From an uncultured Asticcacaulis sp. (GTDB lineage: Bacteria > Pseudomonadota > Alphaproteobacteria > Caulobacterales > Caulobacteraceae), in NCBI GenBank assembly GCA_946482045.1, contig CAMLPZ010000142.1, forward strand, positions 1-10,730: a DNA stretch of 10,730 nt, in the 5' to 3' direction. The translations under genes were made by a program, and so were the position numbers. Of this stretch, positions 1 through 10,730 are shown one piece after another. The notes beneath the pieces were generated by a model. The model was not told the DNA's origin, made no database searches, and worked only from the letters and a program-made list of their open reading frames with translations. Within the stretch, counting starts at the first letter, position 1; every line of letters starts with the position of its first letter.

Positions 1-2
1 AG

Positions 3-56
3 ACTGGAAATCTTCGAGCCGTTCAAATTCTGCTCGGTCACACGAAACTCGAGAGG
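3..56 (+). pseudogene. C-terminal remnant of a tyrosine recombinase (phage-type integrase)
   Basis: Reading from base 3, the frame encodes TGNLRAVQILLGHTKLERT. This closely resembles the C-terminal catalytic core of a common proteobacterial phage-type integrase family, in which TGNLRAVQ-LLGHTKLEST is followed by VRYLG with the nucleophilic tyrosine. The conserved active-site histidine of LLGH is present. The tyrosine segment is absent, because the match stops after LER and a different sequence follows. The gene begins left of the window, so the state of the rest of the integrase cannot be judged. The frame continues without a stop into the S41 peptidase, so the two form an in-frame chimera. 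The right boundary given here is approximate. The family match is from memory of the motif, not from a search. Confidence 0.6.
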
Positions 57-86
57 ACGACAACACTGGCCCGCGACTACGAACGT

Positions 87-1301
87 TTGTCGTGGCTGAC
101 GGCCGGTGTCAGGTGCGGACACTCCTACGCTAACTTCTTTAATCAGTCCAAGGCGGTCGCCGCCGACCTGTTCGCGCCGGCCAACAAGCTGCCGTTTCAT
201 TTTATCTGGGTAGGTGACCGGATGGTCGTTACCGCCAACCCTGCCATGGCTGGCGGACTTGAGCGGGGAGCGGAAATCCTCGCCATCGATGGTGTCCCCG
301 CAGCGGAGATACAAACGTTTTTGATGCCTTATCTCAGGGCCGACGGCAGCAATGACGCGAGACGTCGCAAGCTACTCGATGTCGAGTCCAAGAACGGGAT
401 TGAAACGTTTGATGTCCTCTATCCTCTGCTTTTTCCGGTGAGGGACAGGTTTGATCTGAGTGTCAGGCCGCCGGAAGGCAAGAACATAAGAAGCGTCACC
501 GTCACTGCCATCGATTTGGCAGCGCGTCAGGCGCAAGCCGCCGCCAGCTCCGACCCCAGCGCTCCGGAGTACTGGGAGCTTGATTTTCCGGCGCCGCGCG
601 TTGCCAGGATTACCATGCCCGGCTGGGCGCTCTATAATGAAACCTGGGACTGGCGTGGACGTATCGACGGATTTTTCGAAGAGATCGCCCGCGGGCAAAC
701 CACTGGCCTGATCATCGACATACGTGACAACGAAGGTGGATTCGACTGCGGCAACGCGATCATCGCCCATTTGATCGACCAAGAGCTACCTTTGTCGGAC
801 CTCTATGAACGCTGGGTGCGTTTCCGCAGTACGCCTGAGGACCTGCGGCCGTTCCTGGACACTTGGGACCGGTCGTTCGACACGCTTGGCGAAGGCGCGA
901 CGGACCTGGGCAACGGTTTTTTCCGGCTGGCCCCGCCAGATGGTGAAAGCGTCATCAAGCCCAAGTCCGGCCGCTTCCGGGGTAAGGTCATCGTTCTCAG
1001 CAGCCCTGAGAACAGCTCCGCCACCTTCCAGTTCATCAGCCTGATCAAACGGCATCGCCTTGGCCGCATCTACGGCCAGCCCACGGGCGGCAATCAGCGC
1101 GGCATCAACGGCGGCGCGTTCTTCTTCCTGCGTTTGCCCAACAGCGGACTTGAGGTTGATTTGCCTTTGATCGGCACCTTCCCGAAGACAGAGCAACCCG
1201 ATGCCGGCATCCTGCCCGACATCGAGGTCGCCGTCCGTATCGAAGATATCGGAAGGAATATCGATGGAGTGCTCGCCCGGGCACTTGCTGATCTGGTTTA
1301 A
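87..1301 (+). CDS. S41-family (tail-specific/tricorn-like) serine peptidase, 5'-truncated and fused to an integrase remnant
   Basis: This is a probable exported serine endopeptidase of family S41. Numbering from the TTG at 87, an RCGHSY segment (residues 9-14) is followed by a PDZ-like stretch (about 49-80). The S41 core begins with LIIDIRDNEGG (208-218), continues with VIVLSSPENSSA containing the likely nucleophile Ser310 or Ser311, and then QPTGGNQRGINGG (331-343). It ends with the usual PDAGILPDI. Family members normally start with a signal peptide and a helical N-terminal domain before the CGH segment. Both are missing here, and no good start codon or ribosome binding site is visible. The frame stays open back to base 3 and encodes an integrase C-terminus, so the actual start may lie outside the window or the gene may be a broken copy. 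Peptidase identity is well supported; whether it is functional is doubtful. Confidence 0.8.
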   Translation: MSWLTAGVRCGHSYANFFNQSKAVAADLFAPANKLPFHFIWVGDRMVVTANPAMAGGLERGAEILAIDGVPAAEIQTFLMPYLRADGSNDARRRKLLDVESKNGIETFDVLYPLLFPVRDRFDLSVRPPEGKNIRSVTVTAIDLAARQAQAAASSDPSAPEYWELDFPAPRVARITMPGWALYNETWDWRGRIDGFFEEIARGQTTGLIIDIRDNEGGFDCGNAIIAHLIDQELPLSDLYERWVRFRSTPEDLRPFLDTWDRSFDTLGEGATDLGNGFFRLAPPDGESVIKPKSGRFRGKVIVLSSPENSSATFQFISLIKRHRLGRIYGQPTGGNQRGINGGAFFFLRLPNSGLEVDLPLIGTFPKTEQPDAGILPDIEVAVRIEDIGRNIDGVLARALADLV

Positions 1302-1322
1302 GAGATCAGGGAAGGCGTTCTA

Positions 1323-1369
1323 CCGCCAATTCCGGAAATAGAACTGGCAAAATGGCGGATACAGTTTTT
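1323..1369 (+). terminator. Possible weak terminator after the S41 gene
   Basis: CCGCCA (1323-1328) and TGGCGG (1353-1358) are inverted repeats, and a run of five T lies at 1365-1369. The stem is only 6 bp with a 24-base loop, so this is a weak candidate for ending S41 transcription ahead of the next gene. Confidence 0.25.
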
Positions 1370-1382
1370 CTGCCCGATAGTG

Positions 1383-1401
1383 GAAGTGCCATCTGCACTT
1401 C
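1383..1401. repeat. Perfect 7-bp inverted repeat touching the -35 of the barrel-gene promoter
   Basis: GAAGTGC (1383-1389), loop CATCT, then GCACTTC (1395-1401). The right arm overlaps the first bases of the TCATC -35 candidate at 1400-1404. The position suits an operator next to a promoter. It may also be a chance palindrome, since the other three candidate promoters in the window have no copy of it. Confidence 0.4.
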
Positions 1402-1427
1402 ATCAAAATTCCGGACTTGCACGTAAG
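1400..1427 (+). promoter_or_regulatory. Candidate ECF-sigma promoter for the beta-barrel gene
   Basis: TCATC (1400-1404), 17 bases, then CGTAAG (1422-1427). Transcription would begin near 1433, leaving a leader of about 29 bases before the ATG at 1462. The same TCATC-N17-CGTAAG occurs before the HupE operon. The spacer here, AAAATTCCGGACTTGCA, matches 13 of 17 positions of the DUF4331 promoter spacer. Assigning it to the ECF sigma factor encoded at 4791 is an inference from the shared pattern. Confidence 0.65.
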
Positions 1428-1461
1428 AGAGGTTGTACCACAATCTCGGACAGGCTGTTCC

Positions 1462-2298
1462 ATGAAAATGCTCACGAAAACGCTCGCATCGGTATCCGTC
1501 GCCGGTGTCATTGCCCTTCCTACCGTGGCGATGGCGCAAGAATGGTCCGGGCTGTATGCCGGCGCTAGTTTCGGCAGTTCAAAGTCGGGCGAAGATAACG
1601 AAACCCTGGTGTTCGACACCAACCTCGACGGCGAATACGCTGATACCGTCCGCACGGCGGGCGGCGCGGATGCATTCTCACCGGGCTTCTGCGACGGAGC
1701 AGCAATCGGCCGGACGCTGGGCGAAGGCTGTTCAGGCGACAAGGAGGATGGGGGTTTTGGCGTCCGCGTGGGTTATGACTGGCAAAGCAATAATTTTGTC
1801 TACGGCCTGGTCGCCGATGTCTCAGGCGTCGACATCCGCGACAGCGTCAGCGGGTTTTCAACGACACCCGCGGCGTACACGCTTATCCGTCAGGTCGATA
1901 CGCTGGCGTCGGTGCGCGCGCGTTTGGGCTATGTGGTCAATGACTGGCTAATCTACGCCACGGCAGGCTATGCGTGGGCGGAGATCGACCGCACTTTCGC
2001 GACAACGAATGCGTTGAACAGCTTTGCGGCGACCGACGGCGACGATGGCAGCGGTGCGCAATATGGTCTCGGATTCGAAAAGCGCATCAACGACCGCTGG
2101 AAGGTCGGCGTCGAATATCTGCATACCACGCTGGATGATGAGGCGCCGATCGTCCGTGCTGGTCCCAGCGCCAATACCTTCGCATCGAACCCCTTCCTGA
2201 TCGCCAACACCTCGGGGACAGATATCCGTCGCAGCGAGGACGAGATCAAGATCGATACCATCCACCTGACCCTCACCTACCGGTTCTGGGGCATGTGA
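1462..2298 (+). CDS. Exported outer-membrane beta-barrel protein (porin/Omp25-like family)
   Basis: This is a 278-aa predicted outer-membrane barrel. Residues 1-26 form a classic signal peptide, MKMLTKTL plus a hydrophobic core ending in PTVAMA, with cleavage before QEWSGLYAG. The WSGLYAGASFG opening, the alternating aromatic/Gly strands (for example RVGYDWQ, ARLGYVV, ATAGYAW, YGLGFEKR, VGVEYLH) and the terminal strand TLTYRFWGM fit the eight-stranded OMP_b-brl/Omp25-Omp31 type. A longer reading from TTG at 1417 is unlikely, because it would start inside the candidate promoter and place 15 residues before an intact signal peptide. No strong ribosome binding site precedes the ATG. A hairpin follows the stop codon. 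The ECF-type promoter upstream suggests that it is a stress-induced envelope protein. No specific role can be assigned. Confidence 0.85.
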   Translation: MKMLTKTLASVSVAGVIALPTVAMAQEWSGLYAGASFGSSKSGEDNETLVFDTNLDGEYADTVRTAGGADAFSPGFCDGAAIGRTLGEGCSGDKEDGGFGVRVGYDWQSNNFVYGLVADVSGVDIRDSVSGFSTTPAAYTLIRQVDTLASVRARLGYVVNDWLIYATAGYAWAEIDRTFATTNALNSFAATDGDDGSGAQYGLGFEKRINDRWKVGVEYLHTTLDDEAPIVRAGPSANTFASNPFLIANTSGTDIRRSEDEIKIDTIHLTLTYRFWGM

Positions 2299-2310
2299 TC
2301 GGTGGATAAA

Positions 2311-2335
2311 CGCGTGGTCAGGGTATGACCACGCG
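2311..2335 (+). terminator. 10-bp perfect hairpin after the barrel gene
   Basis: CGCGTGGTCA (2311-2320), loop GGGTA, then TGACCACGCG (2326-2335), beginning 13 bases after the stop codon. On the plus strand no T-run follows. Three T's follow only on the minus strand. It probably ends or stabilises the barrel-gene transcript, and an operator role ahead of the receptor gene at 2403 is also possible. Confidence 0.5.
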
Positions 2336-2402
2336 GCATTCTCGAGGTTCATCCCCTCATAAATGCAAGTGACGGGGTTTACACACAGGGCGGGCAACCA
2401 GA

Positions 2403-4448
2403 ATGACAAAGACGCGTTTGACGGGAACGGTTGCGGCCGCAACCCTCCTATGTGGCATGGCGTGTCAGGCTGCCGCGGCAGAGTATGCCCCGGCAATTGA
2501 AGCCACTCAGGACATCTATGTGTTCGGCAAGCGCCGGAACGATATCGGCATTGCCACGTCCGCCAGCGAAGGCACGGTTTCATTTGCCAAATTCGCGGAT
2601 CGGCCGCTGACCCGGCCGGGCGAACTAGTCGAGGTGATACCTGGCATGGCCGCCACCCAGCACTCAGGGAACACCAAGGCCAATCAGTACTTTCTGCGCG
2701 GTTTTAACTTGGATCACGGCACGGACTTCACCGTGTCGCTGGACGGTGTACCGCTTAACCTACGAAGCCACGGCCATGGCCAGGGCTATCTCGACCTCAA
2801 CGGCATCATCCCCGAGGTCGTCGAGACTATCAAGTATCGCAAAGGCCCCTACTATGCCGACCTGGGGGACTTTTCAAATGCCGGCGGCGCCGCATTTGAA
2901 ACCTTTCGCAATGGTACCCCTTCTTACGTCCAGACGACGATCGGCGAAAATGGCTATGGCCGCCTGCTGGGCGTCAAAGGTTTGGGTGACCGCAGCTTCG
3001 TCGCTATCGAGCTTGGCAGCTATCGCGGGCCTTATGATAACGCCGACAATCAGCGCAAGGTCAGCGTAATCGGTCGTTTCGCGCTCACTGGCCTAGGTCT
3101 GGACAACTGGTCCCTGACCGGCATGGTCTATGACGCTCATACCAATGCCAACGATCAGATCCCGCAACGCGCCGTCGACCAAGGCTTCATAACCCGTCTG
3201 GGAGCGATCGACACCAGCGACTATGGCGAAACCTCGCGCTATATCGCTTCGCTTCAAAGGCAGGGCGAAGACGGCCTGGATGCCACCCTATATGCCCAGC
3301 GCTATACCCTTGCCCTATTCTCGAACTTCACCTATTTCCTGCGCGATCCCGTCCACGGCGACCAGTTCAAACAAGCCGACGAGCGTTGGATTTATGGTGG
3401 ATCGGTCGTGAAAACCTGGAACGATCCTATACTGGGTTGGACGATCCGCACAGGCGCAGAAACGCGTTACGACGACGTCGGCACGGTCGGGCTCTATTTC
3501 ACCGAAAAGCGCCAGATCCTCTCCATTGTGCGCGAAGATCGGGTGAAGCAATATTCAGCCGCAGTCTACGCTGATGCGACGCGTGCCTTTGGTCCCTTGC
3601 GCATTACCGGCGGGCTTAGGCTTGATACAATCGGTGGCAAGGTTCGTTCAGGTGATCTCCGCAACAGCGGCCAGGCCAGCGACACGCTGCTAAGCCCCAA
3701 ATTCACTGCGGCCTGGCGGGTTTCAAAAGCTCTGGAGCTCTATGCCGACGCCGGTGCAGGCTTTCACTCAAATGATCTTCGCGGCGGCACGATTTCGGTT
3801 ATTCCCGGCACAGACGACCCGGCCGATAAGGTCCCGCTGTTCGCGCCATCTTCAGGCGCCGAACTTGGCGCGCGCTGGTCGCGCAATGGCCTGACGGCGA
3901 CCGCAGCATTGTGGGCCCTGCATCTCGATTCCGAGCTTATTTACATCGGTGACGGGGGCGATACCGCAAGTACCGACGGCACGAACCGCGCAGGTGTGGA
4001 ATTCCTGCTCGACTACAGTCCCCGGCCTGGGCTCGACTTTAACATCTCAGCTGCAGCTTCTCACGCGCGCTATGAGGGCAGTCCATCTGATGGCGATCGC
4101 ATTCCAAACGCGCTTGAATATGTCGTAACTGGCGGCATGACCGCACGCCTCAGTCCGCGCCTCGGCATGACCCTCACCGCTCGCCTCCTGGGACCGGCGC
4201 CGCTGATCGAAGACAATTCGGCGCGATCGGACACGACAATCTTGGTAAATGGCCTGCTCGACCATGACTTCGACCGGTTCCAGGTGAAGCTCGAAGTCCT
4301 TAACCTGTTCGACACCAAAGGAGATGAAATCCGCTACTACTATACCTCGCGCCTACCCGGCGAACCGGCGGAAGGGGTGGATGACTACCACTTCCATGCC
4401 TTTGAGCCCCGAACGGTTCGCCTGTCACTCCGCATTCCGTTGACGTAA
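2403..4448 (+). CDS. TonB-dependent outer-membrane receptor
   Basis: This 681-aa receptor should import a scarce substrate across the outer membrane using TonB-ExbBD energy. Residues 1-26 are a signal peptide ending in AAAA, cleaved before EYAP. A short mature N-terminus carries a TonB-box-like DIYVFGK (37-43). The plug follows at about 66-170, with RPGELVEVIPGMAATQHSG, NQYFLRGFNLDHGTDF and YRKGPYYADLGDFSNAGG. The rest is the beta-barrel, ending in RTVRLSLRIPLT without the usual terminal Phe. The plug loop SHGHGQGYLDLN (122-133) is typical of a subfamily I recognise from sphingomonads and caulobacters, and its His pair could bind metal (inference). The length is usual for the family, and no extra N-terminal signalling (FecA-like) domain is present. 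No ECF-type promoter like the other four was found upstream. The substrate is unknown; nickel or cobalt is suggested only by the neighbours. Confidence 0.93.
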   Translation: MTKTRLTGTVAAATLLCGMACQAAAAEYAPAIEATQDIYVFGKRRNDIGIATSASEGTVSFAKFADRPLTRPGELVEVIPGMAATQHSGNTKANQYFLRGFNLDHGTDFTVSLDGVPLNLRSHGHGQGYLDLNGIIPEVVETIKYRKGPYYADLGDFSNAGGAAFETFRNGTPSYVQTTIGENGYGRLLGVKGLGDRSFVAIELGSYRGPYDNADNQRKVSVIGRFALTGLGLDNWSLTGMVYDAHTNANDQIPQRAVDQGFITRLGAIDTSDYGETSRYIASLQRQGEDGLDATLYAQRYTLALFSNFTYFLRDPVHGDQFKQADERWIYGGSVVKTWNDPILGWTIRTGAETRYDDVGTVGLYFTEKRQILSIVREDRVKQYSAAVYADATRAFGPLRITGGLRLDTIGGKVRSGDLRNSGQASDTLLSPKFTAAWRVSKALELYADAGAGFHSNDLRGGTISVIPGTDDPADKVPLFAPSSGAELGARWSRNGLTATAALWALHLDSELIYIGDGGDTASTDGTNRAGVEFLLDYSPRPGLDFNISAAASHARYEGSPSDGDRIPNALEYVVTGGMTARLSPRLGMTLTARLLGPAPLIEDNSARSDTTILVNGLLDHDFDRFQVKLEVLNLFDTKGDEIRYYYTSRLPGEPAEGVDDYHFHAFEPRTVRLSLRIPLT

Positions 4449-4449
4449 A

Positions 4450-4469
4450 CGTCGTAGTATTTTGCGACG
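4450..4469 (+). terminator. Small hairpin after the receptor gene
   Basis: CGTCG (4450-4454) pairs with CGACG (4465-4469), directly after the receptor stop codon and five bases before the next candidate promoter. The stem is short and no T-run follows, so terminator function is weakly supported. Confidence 0.25.
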
Positions 4470-4473
4470 AAAG

Positions 4474-4501
4474 TGATCCTGAGCACAACAGCCTCCGTAT
4501 C
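4474..4501 (+). promoter_or_regulatory. Candidate autoregulatory ECF promoter for the sigma/anti-sigma operon
   Basis: TGATC (4474-4478), 17 bases, then CGTATC (4496-4501). This is the closest of the four to the TGATC-type -35 element known for Rhodobacter RpoE/ChrR-type sigma factors. It lies about 290 bases before the sigma ATG, so its transcript would carry a long structured leader. It could instead serve a small RNA. Autoregulation is usual for this sigma group but is inferred here. Confidence 0.5.
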
Positions 4502-4790
4502 TGTCACGCCCAATCTTCCGGAGGGGCGACACAGACGGTGAGTGGAATCGGTTGCCCCTTATCGATGCCACGGGCAGCAGTCCTGCCGCCCGTCTGTGTC
4601 ATTACCAGCACAGAGATGCGGACAGAGGTGTACCTCCTCCCGTGTCAGCGACAGTAAAGCGTTGATAAGTCGGCATGATTGCCGAAAGCGGAAGGCCAGT
4701 CAGTGTTGCAGCGCAGATCATTCAGTCCTGACACATTGAATCCTTACGCACTGGCAACAGAAATAGCGTTGGGAATTCGGGAGCTCCGGC

Positions 4791-5399
4791 ATGGTCGGTG
4801 TATTGCAGAAGATTTCGGCGCCACCGCAAAAGGCGAGACCGATCGTGAATGAACCGGTCAATCTGAATTTCTTGCTGGAGCGGATCGCTGAAGGCGACAG
4901 GGCGTCATTGAAGACGCTGTACAATCTGACCATGCCGCGCCTGTCGGCGATGCTGGTACGCATGGTGAGACGGCAGGAGGTCGCCGACGAATTGCTCCAG
5001 GACGTCTTTGTGACAGTTTGGAGCAAGGCGGACCAGTTCGACGTCCGCCGTGGCAGTGCCGAAGCCTGGCTTTTCTCGGTGGCACGGCGCAAGGCAATCG
5101 ACCGTCTGAGGATCAGCCGCCGCGAAGTGTTGGGTCTCGAAGAGGATATCGCGACACTTGAGCCTCAGTCCGATATCCACTTCCTGGGCACCGATGTTGA
5201 GACGACGCTCGCGGTCAAGCATTGCATTGCCAGTTTGACACCGGAAGTCAAAAAGGCGATGCAATTGTGTTATACTTTCGGTCTTACGCACGAGGAACTG
5301 GCCGAAGTGATGAAGGTGCCGGTAGGCACGGCTAAGAGTTGGGTGCGCAAGGGCGTGCTTCATCTGAAGGATTGCTTACAGAGTTATGGACGAGTCTGA
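4791..5399 (+). CDS. ECF (sigma-70 family, RpoE/ChrR-type) RNA polymerase sigma factor
   Basis: This 202-aa group IV sigma factor directs RNA polymerase to alternative promoters. Region 2 covers about residues 40-105, from LYNLTMPRLSAMLVRM through the -10 recognition segment ADELLQDVFVTVWSKA and WLFSVARRKAIDRLR. Region 4 covers about 142-195, with LTPEVKKAMQLCYTFGLTHEELAEVM followed by the helix-turn-helix VPVGTAKSWVRKGVLHLKDCL that reads the -35. There is no extra C-terminal domain, so it is not an ECF41-type protein. The ATG at 4791 has GGGAG seven bases upstream; an ATG at 4848 is a possible alternative. The last 14 bases overlap the start of the cupin anti-sigma gene, which indicates translational coupling, as in other sigma/anti-sigma pairs. 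The window holds four promoter-like sites that this factor may recognise. Confidence 0.93.
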   Translation: MVGVLQKISAPPQKARPIVNEPVNLNFLLERIAEGDRASLKTLYNLTMPRLSAMLVRMVRRQEVADELLQDVFVTVWSKADQFDVRRGSAEAWLFSVARRKAIDRLRISRREVLGLEEDIATLEPQSDIHFLGTDVETTLAVKHCIASLTPEVKKAMQLCYTFGLTHEELAEVMKVPVGTAKSWVRKGVLHLKDCLQSYGRV

Positions 5400-5931
5400 C
5401 GAGATCCTGGCGGCACAGTACGCCCTCGGCGTATTAGACACCGCCGGCATCGTCGAATGCGAGGACCGCGTCCTGGCCGATCCGAACTTTGCGGCGAAGG
5501 TGGCCTGGTTCGAGCAGGTCTTTTATGCCGCGCACGGCAGTTCCCAATCCAGCGATCGCGCCGATCAACTCTGGGACCGTATCGAACACGCCATCGACGA
5601 TAAGATCAAATCCCCTGACACCCGTACCGTACGCGTTGGCGAGATGGGCTGGGAGCCCTACGCTCCGCTCATTACGCGCAAGGTCGTGCACCTCGACCGA
5701 CACGCCGAAGTGCTTACCGCCTTCTATCGTCTGGAACCCGGCGCCGAGGTGATCAGCCACACCCATCTGCTGACCGAGGAATGCCTGGTCATCGAGGGTG
5801 AAATCGAATGCGACGGCATCATCGTTCGTGCCGGCGAAGTGCATTTGGCGCCGCCGGGATCACGCCACGTTTTGAAAAGTCCAAAGGGCGCGATGGTTTA
5901 TCTGCGCGGCGACCTCAACATCCAGCTTTAA
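5386..5931 (+). CDS. ChrR-like anti-sigma factor with C-terminal cupin domain
   Basis: This 181-aa protein is predicted to hold the sigma factor encoded just upstream inactive until a signal arrives. The N-terminal about 75 residues (LAAQYALGVLDTAG, then a helix ending AAKVAWFEQVF) resemble the sigma-binding helices of RskA/ChrR-type anti-sigma factors. They lack the zinc-binding His-x3-Cys-x2-Cys motif of classical ChrR; only one Cys (25) lies in this part. The C-terminal half is a cupin. His125, His127, Glu131 and His161 reproduce the ligand spacing known for R. sphaeroides ChrR (His141, His143, Glu147, His177). There is no membrane segment, so it is cytoplasmic. The start codon lies inside the sigma gene, with a 14-base overlap. 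It converges on the HupE operon with only 12 bases between the stop codons. Confidence 0.85.
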   Translation: MDESDEILAAQYALGVLDTAGIVECEDRVLADPNFAAKVAWFEQVFYAAHGSSQSSDRADQLWDRIEHAIDDKIKSPDTRTVRVGEMGWEPYAPLITRKVVHLDRHAEVLTAFYRLEPGAEVISHTHLLTEECLVIEGEIECDGIIVRAGEVHLAPPGSRHVLKSPKGAMVYLRGDLNIQL

Positions 5932-5943
5932 GCGGGACGTAGG

Positions 5944-6423
5944 CTATTCCATGTGGTCTGGCACATAGCCCGGTGTAGGGACGAACAACAGACCGATTTC
6001 CAGCGCGGCAATCGCGATCAGCCAGGTGCATACGACCTTAATGCCTATTCCCCATCCGCGCGCCACAATGAGCCGGCCGGGAATGAACAGCATGACCAAG
6101 GCCAGCGCCATAAGCCCCTCTGTATTGCCGGAGACATGCGTCACCGCCCCGGCCCACAGACCGGCATAGGCCGCGAGGACGAGATGTACCCAAGGTCGCT
6201 GCACAACCGGAATATGAACACTTGCCGTCAGGGCGATGACGCCAATGCAGATCATGGTGAAAACAAAGGCCTCGGGAACCGTTCCGAAAGGCACCAAGGT
6301 CACCAAGACCGCTATGCCAAGCGCCATGAGGCAGGCATTCCTTGCCACCCTCTCACCGGCGTAGCTAAGCGCCAGGCCGAGTGCGGCGGCCAGCAATGCG
6401 ACAGGCAGGACCGTGTCACGCAA
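5944..6423 (-). CDS. Small polytopic membrane protein, partner of HupE (unknown family)
   Basis: This 159-aa, strongly hydrophobic protein has about six predicted membrane helices (near 5-22, 30-48, 52-70, 76-95, 102-120 and 127-151) and no recognisable catalytic motif. His70 and His79 lie at helix ends, and HVS follows helix 4. The frame opens with TTG and overlaps the end of the HupE gene by 8 bases (6416-6423), so the two are almost certainly translated together. That gene order suggests a subunit or accessory protein of the HupE-type transporter (inference). I do not recognise the family. The TTG start lacks a clear ribosome binding site, as expected with coupling. The stop lies 12 bases from the convergent anti-sigma gene, leaving no room for a separate terminator. 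Confidence 0.75.
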   Translation of the reverse strand: MRDTVLPVALLAAALGLALSYAGERVARNACLMALGIAVLVTLVPFGTVPEAFVFTMICIGVIALTASVHIPVVQRPWVHLVLAAYAGLWAGAVTHVSGNTEGLMALALVMLFIPGRLIVARGWGIGIKVVCTWLIAIAALEIGLLFVPTPGYVPDHME

Positions 6424-7099
6424 AGGAAAACGCCTGGCTCAGGAAGAAACACCCTGCGACAGCGATTGCGGCACCCAACCCGCGCACGATCCATCGCCCT
6501 TTTTCAGAGTCGTTCAGCAAGCCAATCACGATACCACCCACGTGCAGCAAGCCGGTACTTAGCACGAAGCCAGTGCTGTAACCGATCGGATCGGCCGCAG
6601 ATGGCAATTCCTTTCCGTGCGCGTAGCCGTGAAAGGCGGCAAAGATGGCGACCAGGCTGCAAGCCAGCCAGACCGGCGCCTTAAAACCAGCTGTGACGAC
6701 CCCGCCCAGAACCAGGACCGACACGGCAATCCCCAGCTCGACAGGTGGCAGCGGCACATTCTGAATACCTAGGAACGCTCCCACCACCATCAGGACCGGA
6801 AAGATCACCGGAAGGGCGACGACGAGCGGACGGCCAAGCACCGCTCCCCACAATCCCACTGAGACCATCGCCAGCAGGTGATCCCATCCGGTCAGGGGAT
6901 GGAGAAAGCCGGATATGAGACCTCCGACCAAGCCGGTCCCGCTGTGTGCCAAGGCCGGGCTGGCAAACGCAGCGAGGGACAACAGCATGGCCAAGGCGGT
7001 CAAGAGGTGGCGCGGCTGAATATATTGCGGCGATGTCAGCCCAAAAGCCTGGTTGCGACGTATAGGGTCTGTGACACTTCGAAAGCGCGGCAATGACAT
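6416..7099 (-). CDS. HupE/UreJ-family membrane protein (putative nickel/cobalt transporter)
   Basis: This is a 227-aa integral membrane protein. A signal-like N-terminus ending FASPALA precedes a mature protein that starts HSGTG. The family signature follows as GFLHPLTGWDHLLAM, later FHGYAHGKE, and a Gly-rich helix containing TGLLHVGGI. These conserved His/Asp residues are the presumed metal ligands of HupE/UreJ proteins, which are linked to nickel or cobalt uptake. About six helices follow the signal. I chose the ATG at 7099, preceded by AGGA with eight bases of spacing. An in-frame ATG at 7123 (235 aa) falls at the predicted transcription start and has no room for a ribosome binding site. 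The extension before the signal sequence is still long, so an internal non-ATG start is possible. The gene forms an operon with the small membrane protein downstream and is divergent from DUF4198. Confidence 0.88.
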   Translation of the reverse strand: MSLPRFRSVTDPIRRNQAFGLTSPQYIQPRHLLTALAMLLSLAAFASPALAHSGTGLVGGLISGFLHPLTGWDHLLAMVSVGLWGAVLGRPLVVALPVIFPVLMVVGAFLGIQNVPLPPVELGIAVSVLVLGGVVTAGFKAPVWLACSLVAIFAAFHGYAHGKELPSAADPIGYSTGFVLSTGLLHVGGIVIGLLNDSEKGRWIVRGLGAAIAVAGCFFLSQAFSFA

Positions 7100-7127
7100 C
7101 CGGAGGTTCCTGTTGACGATCATAACT

Positions 7128-7155
7128 CTTACGAAGAAGGCTCATGAAGTGATGA
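7128..7155 (-). promoter_or_regulatory. Candidate ECF-sigma promoter for the HupE operon
   Basis: Read on the minus strand: TCATC (7155-7151), 17 bases, CGTAAG (7133-7128). Transcription would start near 7122, about 22 bases before the ATG at 7099. Both elements match the barrel-gene promoter exactly. The -35 lies over the start codon of the divergent DUF4198 gene, so transcription of one gene may interfere with the other. Confidence 0.55.
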
Positions 7156-7970
7156 CCGCGCGAGCGCTTTTTTCCATTGCTGCTGCCGTTCTCGGCATGG
7201 CCTGGGCGCCGTTTGCATCGGCACACGACTTCTGGATTCAACCGCAGAGCTTTCACCTCAAGCCCTCCGGCACCACGCTGATGAGCCTGCAGGTCGGCCA
7301 CGGCAAGGACCGGCAGAAATCGCTGATGAAACGCGACCGCGTGGTACGCTTCGAGTCGATCACGACCGCCGGGCGCCTCGATCGCAGGAACGAACTGCGG
7401 TTGGGGGACAAGGAGACCGACTCGGTGCTGTCGTTCAAGACTTCGGGCCTGAACGTCCTCGCCTTCGAAACAAACGGGACCTACAGCGAACTGCCGGCCA
7501 TCCGTTTCAATGATTACCTGAAAGCCGAAGGCCTTACGCCGGCCATCGACCAGCGGACCCGGACGAACGCGACAGGCAAACCGGGGCGAGAAACCTACAG
7601 CCGCCGGGCTAAAGCCCTGGTGCAGGTCGGCGCATACACCCCCGCTGATGATGCACTGGTCACAAAGCCGGTCGGCCTTACCCTTGAAATCGTTCCGGAG
7701 GCGAATCCATACGCGCCCTCTTATAAGGACAGGCTGCCGGTCCGCATCTACTACATGGGAAAGCCGCTGGCGGGTGCGACAGTGATGCTGAACAATCTCG
7801 ACTTCGATGGCCGGCCCATCAAGCGGGTCCTCAGTGATGCCAATGGAAGTGCGATTTTCGATATACCGCGCAATGGAACTTGGCAGCTGAATGTCATCTG
7901 GACGCGCCCGGTACGCCAGCCCAAGGCCGATTTTGAAACCGTCTTTTCCAGCCTGACGCTTGGATTCTGA
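7152..7970 (+). CDS. Periplasmic DUF4198-family protein
   Basis: This 272-aa exported protein of the DUF4198 family was at one time labelled NikM-like and linked to nickel/cobalt uptake loci. A signal peptide (residues 1-24, MTARALF plus a hydrophobic stretch ending FASA) is cleaved before HDFWIQPQSFHLKPSG, the conserved family opening with an N-terminal His that could bind metal. The remainder is predicted all-beta, with an Ig/transthyretin-like C-terminal part that includes LPVRIYYMGKPLAGATV and NGSAIFDIPRNGTWQLNVIW. I chose the ATG at 7152. A GTG one codon earlier (7149) is equally placed after AGAAGG (7134-7139), and longer readings would add a non-signal extension. The gene is divergent from HupE with a gap of about 50 bases, which fits a shared task. 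A bidirectional terminator follows. Its promoter could not be identified confidently. Confidence 0.85.
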   Translation: MTARALFSIAAAVLGMAWAPFASAHDFWIQPQSFHLKPSGTTLMSLQVGHGKDRQKSLMKRDRVVRFESITTAGRLDRRNELRLGDKETDSVLSFKTSGLNVLAFETNGTYSELPAIRFNDYLKAEGLTPAIDQRTRTNATGKPGRETYSRRAKALVQVGAYTPADDALVTKPVGLTLEIVPEANPYAPSYKDRLPVRIYYMGKPLAGATVMLNNLDFDGRPIKRVLSDANGSAIFDIPRNGTWQLNVIWTRPVRQPKADFETVFSSLTLGF

Positions 7971-7988
7971 ACGAGGATAAACAGTGAA

Positions 7989-8021
7989 AATGCCTGGCCG
8001 CAAAGCCGGCGGCCAGGCATT
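7989..8021. terminator. Bidirectional terminator between convergent genes
   Basis: A 13-bp perfect stem (AATGCCTGGCCGC at 7989-8001 pairs with GCGGCCAGGCATT at 8009-8021) has a 7-base loop. It sits between the DUF4198 stop (7970) and the lipoprotein stop (8040). On the minus strand the stem is followed by a short T-run (bases 7990-7987), and it should also end plus-strand transcripts. Confidence 0.85.
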
Positions 8022-8039
8022 GTCACGCGGCGGGCACTG

Positions 8040-8282
8040 TTAATTGAGCGGCGTTGGTTCCGCGGTCGCATCGACGGCGACCACGTCGCTTGCCGAGACC
8101 GAAGCCGGTTCGGAATTGGCATCCGCCTTGGCCGCGGCAGCAAAGCCTGCGCCATATTTGGCATTGGCCTCAGGCGCCGGCGGCGTGACGACGACGGTCT
8201 TGCCACCGCCATCGCCGCCACCGCATGCGGTCAGCCCCAAAACCATGGCGCCCAGGGCCGAAACAATGATCAATCTTTTCAT
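8040..8282 (-). CDS. Small lipoprotein (80 aa) in an operon with DUF4331
   Basis: This 80-aa precursor has a type II signal peptide: MKRL, a hydrophobic core and the lipobox LTAC, with lipidated Cys20. A Gly-rich linker (CGGGDGGG) follows, then a short low-complexity domain ending in EPTPLN. The residues after the Cys are Gly, not Asp, so outer-membrane sorting is likely. The segment KYGAGFAAAAKADANSEP could form an amphipathic helix. The ATG lies 11 bases after the DUF4331 stop codon, and its AGGAG ribosome binding site overlaps that TAA, so the two genes are cotranscribed and probably cooperate. No catalytic motif is seen and the family is not recognised. It might anchor or assist the exported DUF4331 protein at the membrane (inference). 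Confidence 0.8.
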   Translation of the reverse strand: MKRLIIVSALGAMVLGLTACGGGDGGGKTVVVTPPAPEANAKYGAGFAAAAKADANSEPASVSASDVVAVDATAEPTPLN

Positions 8283-8293
8283 ATTCGGGCTCC

Positions 8294-9895
8294 TTAGCGA
8301 TGTTCGCTGAGTGGCGCACCGGCCAACGGAGCGTTGAGGTACGGGAAGCTGCCTTGCAGGTCCGTCGCCTTAATTGGTGCACCATCGGTAAACGGCACAT
8401 TCCCGACGGGGGCCTGAGCCGGCGTGCAGACGCCGAGATTGGTCGGGACAGAGTTTATGGGAATAGGGTGGCAAAGCGCGCCCATGGCGACCCGCAGTGC
8501 GATATCTACGGTGTCGTCACCCGGACGGCGTCCGTTCGGGAAGCCTGCCAGATCATCGCCAGCAACGCCGAGATTGCTCTGCTGCGCGCGCGCGGTCACA
8601 GCGACCGCCGTGTTGAGGCGGATCATCTCGGACGGCGTCACCGTCTCGAGCTGGTTGAGCGACGGCACGCCCGTCAGGAAGGCTGCCACCAGATCGTTGC
8701 GCGGGAAATTGGTCGGCGCAAGGTTCGGGATGTTGGTGCCCAAGGTGGCATTGACGGCATCCTTGAAAAGCAGGTTGAGGATCGCCGGCAGGGTCGGATT
8801 GGTTACGTAGGACCCAAACTGAGCATCGTCCGAGGGTTTGGATGCGTTGAATTTGTCCTTGTCGGGCAGGCCAATAACCACTTCGTTCACGAGCGGCATG
8901 CCCAGGCGCGACACCTGGGTATAGGCGCCCCCCGAAGCCGAAGGGCGTGCATAGGTGGCGTTGGGCGCCAGCAGACGTGCCTGCGGCAGGCTGGCGGTCT
9001 GCCAGCCACCGATGACACCATTGCCGCTGCCCGTCAGGCAAGAGATGGGCACCTCGATAGCGATCGAGGTGACGTTTTTTTTGCCGACCAGTTCGTCATT
9101 GGCGCGGTTCTGCTTGACACCGCCGGGGAAGCCCCCGCCGTCACCGGCGCCGGGCGCGCTGTCGCCCTCCACCGGGACGAAGTTCACCAAGTCGAAGATC
9201 GAGCCAAGATTGACCGCGAAGGCTTCGGCGCGCTGGCCGACGAACACCTTGCCGGCTGTCGAACAGCCTGGCAGATTCACGTTGTAGATATATTGGTTGG
9301 CATAGGCGTTATAATCGGCAAACGTCTTCTTGCCGCTATAGTCGAACGGCTTGCTAAAGCTTGTTCCGCCGCCGCTGGCATTGGTTGCCAGGGCTTTAGA
9401 GCCGGAGCGGCGGTCACCGGTGATGACCGTCAGGGTGTAGCTTTCGGTCTCGCCCAAGGCTGCGTTGTTGCCAGCCGAAATGGCACCAGCGTGGCGCAGA
9501 GGAATAGCATTCGTGGCGCCGCCGACATTGAGCGTCACGCCCGTATTGCCCACCAGGGCATTGCTGAACTTGAACTGGAAGGTCAGATCTTCCTTGGCGT
9601 CGCCGGTATTATCGATATGAATTTCATAGACCGCGTCCGGGTCCATGGTGAAATAGTTTGGCCCGCCGCCTGGGTCCTGAAGAGGCATATAGTTGGCGAT
9701 GAAGGTCACAAAGCCATCCCGGCCGGGTTCGTAGCTACGGAACATGTAGAAATCAGTCGAGTCGACCTTTGGCGATTTCGTAATGCCGGGCGCTTCGCGG
9801 TGACTTGATGCCATCGCTGCCGGTGCAAGAGCCGCAAGGCTAAGGACGCTGACTGTGGTGAGTATGGCAAGATTGCCGCGCTTCAATTTCCTCAC
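8294..9895 (-). CDS. Exported DUF4331-domain protein
   Basis: This 533-aa exported protein belongs to the DUF4331 family, whose function is unknown. The signal peptide (1-29, MRKLKRGNL plus a hydrophobic core ending in AAMA) is cleaved before SSHREAP, the family's hallmark opening. Conserved blocks follow: KVDSTDFYMFRSYEPGR, FIANYMPLQDPGGGPNYF and DAVYEIHIDNTGDA near the N-terminus, and FPNGRRPGDDTVDIALRV and PFTDGAPIKATDLQGSFPYL near the end. Four Cys are present, in LPGCSTAG, ISCLTG, ALCHP and GVCTP, and may form disulfides. The start is GTG at 9895, fixed by an excellent AGGAGG five bases upstream (9906-9901). Length and end fit the family. It heads an operon with the 80-aa lipoprotein and has an ECF-type promoter about 50 bases upstream, so it is probably a major induced product of the local sigma factor. 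Confidence 0.92.
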   Translation of the reverse strand: MRKLKRGNLAILTTVSVLSLAALAPAAMASSHREAPGITKSPKVDSTDFYMFRSYEPGRDGFVTFIANYMPLQDPGGGPNYFTMDPDAVYEIHIDNTGDAKEDLTFQFKFSNALVGNTGVTLNVGGATNAIPLRHAGAISAGNNAALGETESYTLTVITGDRRSGSKALATNASGGGTSFSKPFDYSGKKTFADYNAYANQYIYNVNLPGCSTAGKVFVGQRAEAFAVNLGSIFDLVNFVPVEGDSAPGAGDGGGFPGGVKQNRANDELVGKKNVTSIAIEVPISCLTGSGNGVIGGWQTASLPQARLLAPNATYARPSASGGAYTQVSRLGMPLVNEVVIGLPDKDKFNASKPSDDAQFGSYVTNPTLPAILNLLFKDAVNATLGTNIPNLAPTNFPRNDLVAAFLTGVPSLNQLETVTPSEMIRLNTAVAVTARAQQSNLGVAGDDLAGFPNGRRPGDDTVDIALRVAMGALCHPIPINSVPTNLGVCTPAQAPVGNVPFTDGAPIKATDLQGSFPYLNAPLAGAPLSEHR

Positions 9896-9910
9896 GAAAC
9901 CCTCCTGGAC

Positions 9911-9944
9911 GTGACACGACCGCCTGAAGCGATCGACCTGTCAC
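9911..9944 (-). repeat. Inverted repeat in the DUF4331 leader
   Basis: GTGACA (9911-9916) and TGTCAC (9939-9944) are perfect 6-bp inverted repeats, 22 bases apart, between the candidate -10 and the ribosome binding site. They could form a leader hairpin or a binding site, but the short arms make chance plausible. Confidence 0.3.
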
Positions 9945-9945
9945 T

Positions 9946-9973
9946 CCTACGGGGAGGTCCGGGATTTTGATGT
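9946..9973 (-). promoter_or_regulatory. Candidate ECF-sigma promoter for the DUF4331-lipoprotein operon
   Basis: Read on the minus strand: ACATC (9973-9969), 17 bases, CGTAGG (9951-9946). The spacer AAAATCCCGGACCTCCC matches the spacer of the barrel-gene promoter at 13 of 17 positions, including AAAAT and CCGGAC. The start site would be near 9940, giving a leader of about 45 bases. Confidence 0.65.
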
Positions 9974-9997
9974 TTGGAAGCGAAAATAAATGCGCGG

Positions 9998-10726
9998 CTA
10001 GAAGATTGAAGCCATCACATCAGGCATAGGTGAAGGCGTCAGGATATCCGCCCAGCGCCATTGGCCTGATCCTACTGCCAGCACCACAGTGGTCTGGCGG
10101 TCAGGTATCAGAAACAGGACAGGTCCCTGGTTTTGTATTTGGAGGCATTCAGGCCGGGATGACACAACTGCCTTTACTAGCAGGGCGCGTAACAGCGCAG
10201 TACCGCCCGACTGCGTTCCCTCCGCCCACTGTCCGTCCCACAACATGACAGCATTGGCAACCGAGCGCCCTGAGGCTGGAATGGCGGCAATACCTTGCTG
10301 GACTTCAGGGCTTTGAGCAAAGGCTTCGGCCAGGTCCTGCGCCAGGTTACAGGCCGCCCCCGGCTCTCCCGCCGATATGAGTTGGAAGCTGCCAACCAGC
10401 GCCATATCGACTTCGCTTAAAGACGAGGAAGAAGACTCTTCCGGGTTAATCGCGCGTTCCAGACCCTCGTTCGCCGTTGGCAGGGCCCTGTGCTCACTTG
10501 ATTCAGGTTTGGAGCGGCTCTGTGCGACACGCCCCACCGGCTCCAGGGTTGAAACAAGTGAGGCGGTGACCATGACGCCCTGGTCGCCGGCAGACTTTTC
10601 GCCCGGACCGTTGAGTTGCAGACAAAGTGCAAGGCCAACGATGATATGGCCCGCTACAACGACCGCCCCAACGCCCACGCGTCGCTTGAGCTTGTGTAGC
10701 ACGATGCTGGAAGGCTCAAATTTCAT
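9998..10726 (-). CDS. Single-pass envelope protein with TonB-like topology (unknown family)
   Basis: This 242-aa protein is not recognised with certainty. A short basic N-terminus (about 1-17, HKLKRR) precedes one membrane helix (about 18-38, VGVGAVVVAGHIIVGLALCL). A Ser/Glu-rich linker (about 40-105, with a run of Ser at 98-102) leads to a compact C-terminal domain (about 110-230). That domain contains CNLAQDLAEAFAQSP, VANAVMLWDGQW and VLAVGSGQWRWADIL. Cys126 and Cys194 could form a disulfide. The layout of short cytoplasmic tail, single helix with a His, linker and periplasmic domain resembles TonB, but no TonB C-terminal motif is seen. The ATG overlaps a TAA (sequence TAATG at 10728-10724), suggesting coupling to a gene just outside the window, so the left part of its operon is unseen. 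The start is therefore well placed, although the frame remains open to the window edge. Confidence 0.75.
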   Translation of the reverse strand: MKFEPSSIVLHKLKRRVGVGAVVVAGHIIVGLALCLQLNGPGEKSAGDQGVMVTASLVSTLEPVGRVAQSRSKPESSEHRALPTANEGLERAINPEESSSSSLSEVDMALVGSFQLISAGEPGAACNLAQDLAEAFAQSPEVQQGIAAIPASGRSVANAVMLWDGQWAEGTQSGGTALLRALLVKAVVSSRPECLQIQNQGPVLFLIPDRQTTVVLAVGSGQWRWADILTPSPMPDVMASIF

Positions 10727-10730
10727 TAGA

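Follow-up and report, generated by a model that had tools for sequence, protein, structure and literature searches.

Does an extracytoplasmic function (ECF) sigma factor of Asticcacaulis control the genes around it, and through which promoters? The question was raised by four two-block motifs in 10,730 nucleotides of DNA from an uncultured Asticcacaulis sp. (GenBank assembly GCA_946482045.1, contig CAMLPZ010000142.1, positions 1 to 10,730 of the forward strand; this whole stretch is called the window below). The motifs share the core ATC-N17-CGTA and stand before the genes for an outer-membrane beta-barrel protein, the sigma factor itself, a HupE-family permease and a DUF4331 protein (Table 1). 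The sites were confirmed to be real and more than chance. Judged from sequence comparison, they probably represent the -35 and -10 elements of ECF-type promoters and together make up a single small regulon, which would be read mainly by the local sigma factor and restrained by the cupin anti-sigma factor encoded directly behind it.

Number and placement of the sites

All four sites were recovered letter for letter as listed in a first-pass annotation of the window, and no further exact copy of ATC-N17-CGTA was found in it. The annotation had expected about one chance match per window. This estimate was borne out by dinucleotide shuffles of the window (mean 0.75 sites, standard deviation 0.86, with at least four sites in 2 of 200 shuffles) and by the background in Asticcacaulis strain BE327 (genome G001), where twenty 20-kb stretches of this single relative held 24 copies in 400 kb, or 0.64 per 10.73 kb, giving a Poisson probability of 0.004 for four or more. 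Since the raw count is just moderately surprising, the weight rests on placement and conservation. Comparison with the gene calls agreed with the annotation that every site is located upstream of a gene and correctly oriented. All four lie within the 942 of 10,730 bases (8.8%) outside gene calls, apart from an overlap of the third site (that of HupE) with the first 4 bases of a divergent DUF4198 gene. The distance from CGTA to the start codon is 36 bases for the beta-barrel gene, 291 for the sigma gene, 30 for hupE and 52 for the DUF4331 gene. The annotation mentions neither the overlap of the third site nor the remoteness of the sigma site from its gene.

Conservation of the sites in relatives

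Strain BE327, Asticcacaulis sp. AC460 and A. biprosthecium C19 have the genes between the beta-barrel gene and the window edge in the same order as the window, and the window sigma factor shares 86% identity with a BE327 protein. Within the family, the sites proved to be conserved upstream of orthologues: the three syntenic Asticcacaulis clusters (L001, L002 and L003, from genomes G001 to G003) each keep all four at the corresponding genes, and L001 has six ATC-N17-CGTA sites within its first 11 kb. The flanking upstream DNA of L002 and L003 has largely diverged from that of the window (by eye); what has been conserved is the core of seven bases together with its spacing. When the window was scanned with a matrix built only from 13 sites of relatives, the four sites ranked 1 to 4, with scores of 15.0 to 17.9 against 10.8 for the next match (a difference of 4 bits), a ranking that was helped by the close relationship of L001.

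A more distant comparison was provided by genome G017, whose orthologous sigma gene (locus L114) is placed amid other neighbours, namely an Nramp transporter, two ferritin-like proteins and a beta-barrel protein. Four motif copies were found there in 19.9 kb. Three of them precede the genes for the sigma factor, the beta-barrel protein and one of the ferritin-like proteins, and the fourth, at L114 7144, is assigned to no gene. The ferritin-like gene under the motif has no counterpart in the window. The motif thus appears to travel with the sigma gene, which provides the best sequence evidence for their pairing.

Survey of DUF4331 and HupE loci

For a wider comparison, 390 Caulobacteraceae genomes were surveyed for DUF4331, of which 40 had any match and 16 full-length loci were used, three of these being from G001 to G003. 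The variant CGT[ACT] was permitted from the first scan, and the distance range of 25-110 bases was chosen after that scan. At these settings, ATC-N17-CGT[ACT] was found before the DUF4331 start in 13/16 loci (10/13 without G001 to G003; absent from L151, L155 and L161), and each of 19 other spacings gave 0-2 of the 16 loci. The core context of the 13 sites was mostly GCATCC (G in 9, the first flanking C in 11 and the last C in 10 of 13). A strict site preceded HupE in six of seven loci (window, L001-L003, L214 and L215) and was not seen in L212. Other alphaproteobacterial loci with full-length DUF4331 had the site in two of three cases (L116, and L117, where a TPR gene separates it from DUF4331), L115 being without it.

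The co-occurrence of sigma, anti-sigma and DUF4331 genes extends from Alphaproteobacteria to Verrucomicrobiota. In five Roseobacteraceae loci (L012, L021, L028, L029 and L036), TGCATC-N17-CGTA was located before the sigma gene in every case; DUF4331 is preceded there instead by TGAAAC-N17-CGTC (by eye). Among seven verrucomicrobial loci, six (L039, L046, L049, L057, L061 and L065) show the reversed blocks TACG-N17-GGATGCA upstream of DUF4331, with a TPR gene in between in L049, and in the same six the sigma gene is preceded by a resembling element, GGATGC. The seventh, L053, has neither in that form.

The DUF4331 protein was also modelled, with structure alignments of 16 and 44 chosen rows. 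The first model was poor, with a predicted local distance difference test (pLDDT) score of 37.9; the second (pLDDT 65.5) found no counterpart in Foldseek at E<=0.001, and its VIA matches were just middling.

The sigma and anti-sigma factors

Compared with solved structures, the sigma profile matched SigK (4nqw, E 3.6e-32) best and RpoE (2q1z, E 2.3e-24) second. The motif precedes the sigma gene in the window, L001, L002, L003 and L114, the usual sign of auto-regulation. Among 49 homologous sigma genes, 34 have ATC-N17-CGTA upstream, including all 19 genes whose anti-sigma factor contains the zinc motif HxxxCxxC; the locus of the window does not belong to these 19. In a tree of the 49 sigma proteins, the window protein falls into a set of seven rows without zinc-type members (support 99/98), and the 19 zinc rows form a separate set together with one unlabelled row (100/94). 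The deepest forks of this tree are weak (56/41), and several long branches were flagged.

The anti-sigma profile matches ChrR (3o14, E 1.2e-13). Its cupin domain holds the metal residues H125, H127, E131 and H161, of which H125, E131 and H161 are invariant in eight aligned rows, and both the residues (H, H, E, H) and their spacing are those listed as zinc-holding for the ChrR cupin in PMC6852236. The HxxxCxxC motif is absent from the window protein and from the seven relatives aligned with it, and the NCBIfam ChrR model TIGR02451 scores the window protein at 19.5 bits, the cut-off being 124.5. This anti-sigma factor is not a standard ChrR, having the cupin metal residues and lacking HxxxCxxC.

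Comparison with known systems

The annotation had connected TGATC-type -35 elements with sigma factors of the RpoE/ChrR type, in line with the RpoE2 sites of Shewanella, which read TGATC-N17-CGTAAT and similar; the sites of this related system, whose start sites have been mapped, show the same core and spacing (PMC4336711). The window pair resembles the ECF11 systems, i.e. RpoE-ChrR of Rhodobacter sphaeroides and RpoE2-ChrR of Shewanella oneidensis, in the order of the sigma and anti-sigma genes (PMC4336711, PMC6852236), in a C-terminal cupin-like domain with HxH...E...H (PMC6852236) and in having the motif before the sigma gene. It differs from them in an N-terminal anti-sigma domain without HxxxCxxC, in a sigma factor outside the clade of zinc-ChrR-linked sigma factors (subject to the weak deepest forks) and in its targets, which are DUF4331, HupE and a beta-barrel protein, whereas those listed for Shewanella are a photolyase and fatty-acid genes (PMC4336711). 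The ECF11 promoter TGATC-N17-CGTA is present in full at the window sigma gene only; the other three sites share just ATC-N17-CGTA. The pair would therefore appear to work like ECF11, without being filed here as a member.

SigK-RskA (ECF18/ECF19) also enters the comparison, SigK being the best relative of the window sigma factor among solved structures only. The N-terminus of the window anti-sigma factor contains AAxYALGVL, which looks RskA-like by eye. RskA is not known to have a cupin domain. It did not appear in the 37 matches that the anti-sigma profile gave at E<=1, and a search of the literature for a SigK promoter found nothing. A SigF-type reading was rejected, as the published elements (GTAACC-N16-CGAA, PMC3511200) do not fit the window sites. 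The circuit is a known kind of switch, and its set of predicted target genes is new.

Probable assignment of the promoters to a sigma factor

In the proposed mechanism, the cupin anti-sigma factor would hold the sigma factor in the resting state, and a signal, probably sensed via the cupin metal site, would release it. Once freed, the sigma factor would transcribe the sigma/anti-sigma gene pair, the beta-barrel gene (from which transcription may continue into the TonB-dependent receptor gene), HupE with its partner and DUF4331 with its lipoprotein. The annotation had proposed that the sigma factor encoded at 4791 controls its neighbours. Conservation and the different neighbourhood in G017 support this connection, and they fall short of proving that this sigma factor is the reader. 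The sequences show the sites, their exact spacing, their conservation and the gene content. Relatives with the local sigma factor possess, in addition, a ChrR that passes the family cut-off and belongs to a kind whose sigma genes have the same core motif upstream, so the reader of the promoters is inferred. Inhibition by the anti-sigma factor, the kind of signal and a metal role of the targets are inferred as well.

Several observations weigh against a regulon of four sites read by the local sigma factor. A matrix built from L002, L003 and L114 alone placed just the sigma and beta-barrel sites in the lead, with the other two outside the top 8, which leaves the sites poorly defined outside their core of seven bases. 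The sharper pattern SATC-N17-CGTADG, tried as a general form, matches 42 times in G001, with four matches in the cluster (first 10.1 kb of contig C1); it was discarded on the counts of 0/47 in the cluster of G002 and 1/43 in that of G003, which indicate that the pattern does not hold generally past CGTA. Strict CGTA was found at only 8/16 DUF4331 loci, and in the five Roseobacteraceae loci the motif was not found near any DUF4331 start (0/5), though the sigma and anti-sigma genes adjoin. In the window, the region upstream of the TonB-dependent receptor gene (2299-2402) contains CATC without CGTA and thus no intact site; L001 has this site intact (2314), L002 and L003 have it in the nearly complete form TGCGTC-N17-CGTA (by eye), and the receptor of the window is perhaps read through from the beta-barrel promoter. 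The sigma site is separated from its own start codon by the longest of the four distances given above. Each of G001, G002, G003 and G017 has a ChrR above the family cut-off, which, together with a core equal to the published ECF11 promoter, makes cross-talk possible. Finally, in the 13 other Caulobacteraceae with DUF4331, the best match to the local sigma factor reached at most 38% identity (some contigs being short), no sigma match at E<=1e-25 was obtained in 4/13, and a match within 20 kb of DUF4331 was present only in G768 and G696. As 10 of these 13 keep the promoter without a close local sigma factor, another ECF sigma factor probably reads it there.

One alternative is that the promoters are real and are read mainly by another, zinc-ChrR-controlled sigma factor of the ECF11 type, with the local sigma factor as a target or minor partner. 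ECF11 promoters have the same core and spacing, the motif upstream of all 19 sigma genes with an HxxxCxxC anti-sigma factor and the ChrR proteins of the four genomes agree with such a reader, and TGATCC at the window sigma site equals the published ECF11 -35 element. In G696 (L208), moreover, a TonB-dependent receptor and DUF4331 are found under TGATCC-N17-CGTA sites near a ChrR-like gene, which at 118.5 bits misses the cut-off. The DUF4331 gene of G674 (L212) follows a sigma/ChrR pair whose ChrR passes it. However, the remaining three sites of the window have CATC in place of TGATC, the sites cluster near the local sigma gene, and those of G017 accompany it in a different gene neighbourhood. 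We therefore regard this alternative as serious but unlikely, and the reading by the local sigma factor is retained as the probable one. That the motif is a binding site for a repressor or activator and not a promoter would accommodate the reversed blocks in the six verrucomicrobial loci, which a promoter reading does not predict. The blocks point towards the gene in the window, in L001-L003 and at the DUF4331 sites examined, usually at a distance of 30-90 bases, and are identical to the published ECF11 -35 and -10 elements, which makes a regulator site very improbable. Chance, finally, could produce the seven fixed bases 0.6 to 1.3 times per window, and the count by itself has a probability of about 0.004 to 0.01, so that the case against a random origin is made by the conservation of orthologous places with exactly 17 bases, the restriction to the small part of the window outside gene calls and the spacing control at DUF4331. 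Orthologous conservation and this control led to the rejection of chance, which now has next to no likelihood.

The locus of G696 contains six TGATCC-N17-CGTA sites around the ChrR-like gene (L208 3634-12610), some of them before the TonB-dependent receptor and DUF4331 genes. The letters before ATC (GCATC or TGATC) were also considered as a mark of the sigma type and rejected, as the zinc-type loci L092-L097 show other letters and L212 has GCATCC before a sigma gene with ChrR above the cut-off.

Gene order and leader of the sigma gene

The window encodes an S41 peptidase, an outer-membrane beta-barrel protein, a TonB-dependent receptor, the ECF sigma factor, the cupin anti-sigma factor, HupE and its partner, DUF4198, DUF4331 with the lipoprotein and an edge gene without a family match. 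The small membrane-like protein that overlaps the end of HupE is likely to belong to the same operon. An Rfam scan of the window gave nothing at gathering scores. In BE327, a bacteriophytochrome-type sensor kinase is located immediately past the conserved cluster (L001 11640-13889).

Table 1. Sites, genes and leader of the putative regulon in the window
Feature	Position	Strand	Evidence and remarks
Predicted ECF promoter of beta-barrel gene	1400..1427	+	TCATC-N17-CGTAAG; also L001 841, L002 938, L003 6205, L114 15262
Outer-membrane beta-barrel protein (OMP_b-brl)	1462..2298	+	Pfam PF13505, E 6e-18; start taken as ATG 1462
TonB-dependent receptor	2403..4448	+	PF07715, E 8.7e-11
Predicted ECF (auto-regulatory) promoter of sigma gene	4474..4501	+	TGATC-N17-CGTATC; also L001 4455, L002 4588, L003 9836, L114 9472
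Long structured 5' leader of sigma gene	4507..4790	+	RNA fold z -3.50
ECF sigma factor	4791..5399	+	PF04542 and PF08281
Anti-sigma factor, ChrR-type cupin, N-terminal domain without zinc motif	5386..5931	+	PF12973, E 4.4e-13
Small membrane-like protein, overlaps HupE end	5944..6423	-	Syntenic in L001-L003; no Pfam match
HupE/UreJ-family permease	6416..7099	-	PF04955, E 6.8e-56; start taken as ATG 7099
Predicted ECF promoter of HupE operon	7128..7155	-	TCATC-N17-CGTAAG; also L001, L002, L003, L214, L215
Small lipoprotein-like gene, downstream of DUF4331	8040..8282	-	Syntenic in L001-L003
DUF4331 secreted protein	8294..9895	-	PF14224, E 1.1e-145
Predicted ECF promoter of DUF4331 and lipoprotein	9946..9973	-	ACATC-N17-CGTAGG

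The leader of the sigma gene is strongly structured, none of 200 shuffles being equally stable, and the L001 leader (4487-4771) is similar in this respect (z -3.58). L002 and L003 are without a long leader because the site is much nearer to the sigma gene. By eye, the leader of the window contains the inverted repeat GACACAGACGG/CCGTCTGTGTC, with a matching change from A-U to G-C in L001; the repeat is used by the minimum-energy fold of L001 and unused by that of the window. A second block near the sigma start (4735-4760, CATTGAATnnTTACG) is kept in L001-L003, with a similar one in L114, and is possibly a second promoter.

Possible function

The leading guess, by analogy, is that the target genes may serve the capture or handling of metal at the envelope. 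It derives from the following observations. DUF4198 of Ideonella sakaiensis binds nickel with a Kd of 18 nM via its N-terminal histidine, HupE/UreJ-2 proteins have metal-binding domains or heads (both in PMC12537917), and in Caulobacter two DUF4198 genes are the strongest induced genes of two iron- and Fur-controlled clusters (PMC3751524). In the window, signal cleavage after ASA and ALA would give mature DUF4198 and HupE proteins that both start with histidine (by eye). The window HupE belongs to the PF04955 family and not to HupE/UreJ-2 with its metal-binding head, and the window holds no ATC-N17-CGTA before DUF4198 on its own strand. An oxidative signal is the alternative suggested by the kinship with ChrR.

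Neither DUF4331 nor "sigma factor" was matched in the main text of PMC12537917. No mention of DUF4331 and no paper that brings together HupE/UreJ, a TonB-dependent receptor and a sigma factor was found in the literature searched, most subscription journals being outside the search.

Tentatively, and with more doubt than confidence, a broader scheme may be proposed. A cytoplasmic anti-sigma factor that has kept the cupin metal site of ChrR and lost the structural zinc in the domain that binds the sigma factor may sense a metal or a metal-borne oxidant and run an undescribed envelope metal-capture module (HupE, a beta-barrel protein or TonB-dependent receptor, and DUF4331 with the lipoprotein) via ATC-N17-CGTA; in some Caulobacteraceae, the controlling sigma factor may have been swapped for the zinc-ChrR type and the promoter kept. 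For poorly known genes such as those for DUF4331, the HupE partner and the small lipoprotein, the predicted regulon provides a testable set that would be placed under a single switch. A natural comparison is offered as well, in that G002, G003 and G017 each combine in one genome two cupin anti-sigma factors, with and without the zinc site, whose sigma factors would share a promoter core.

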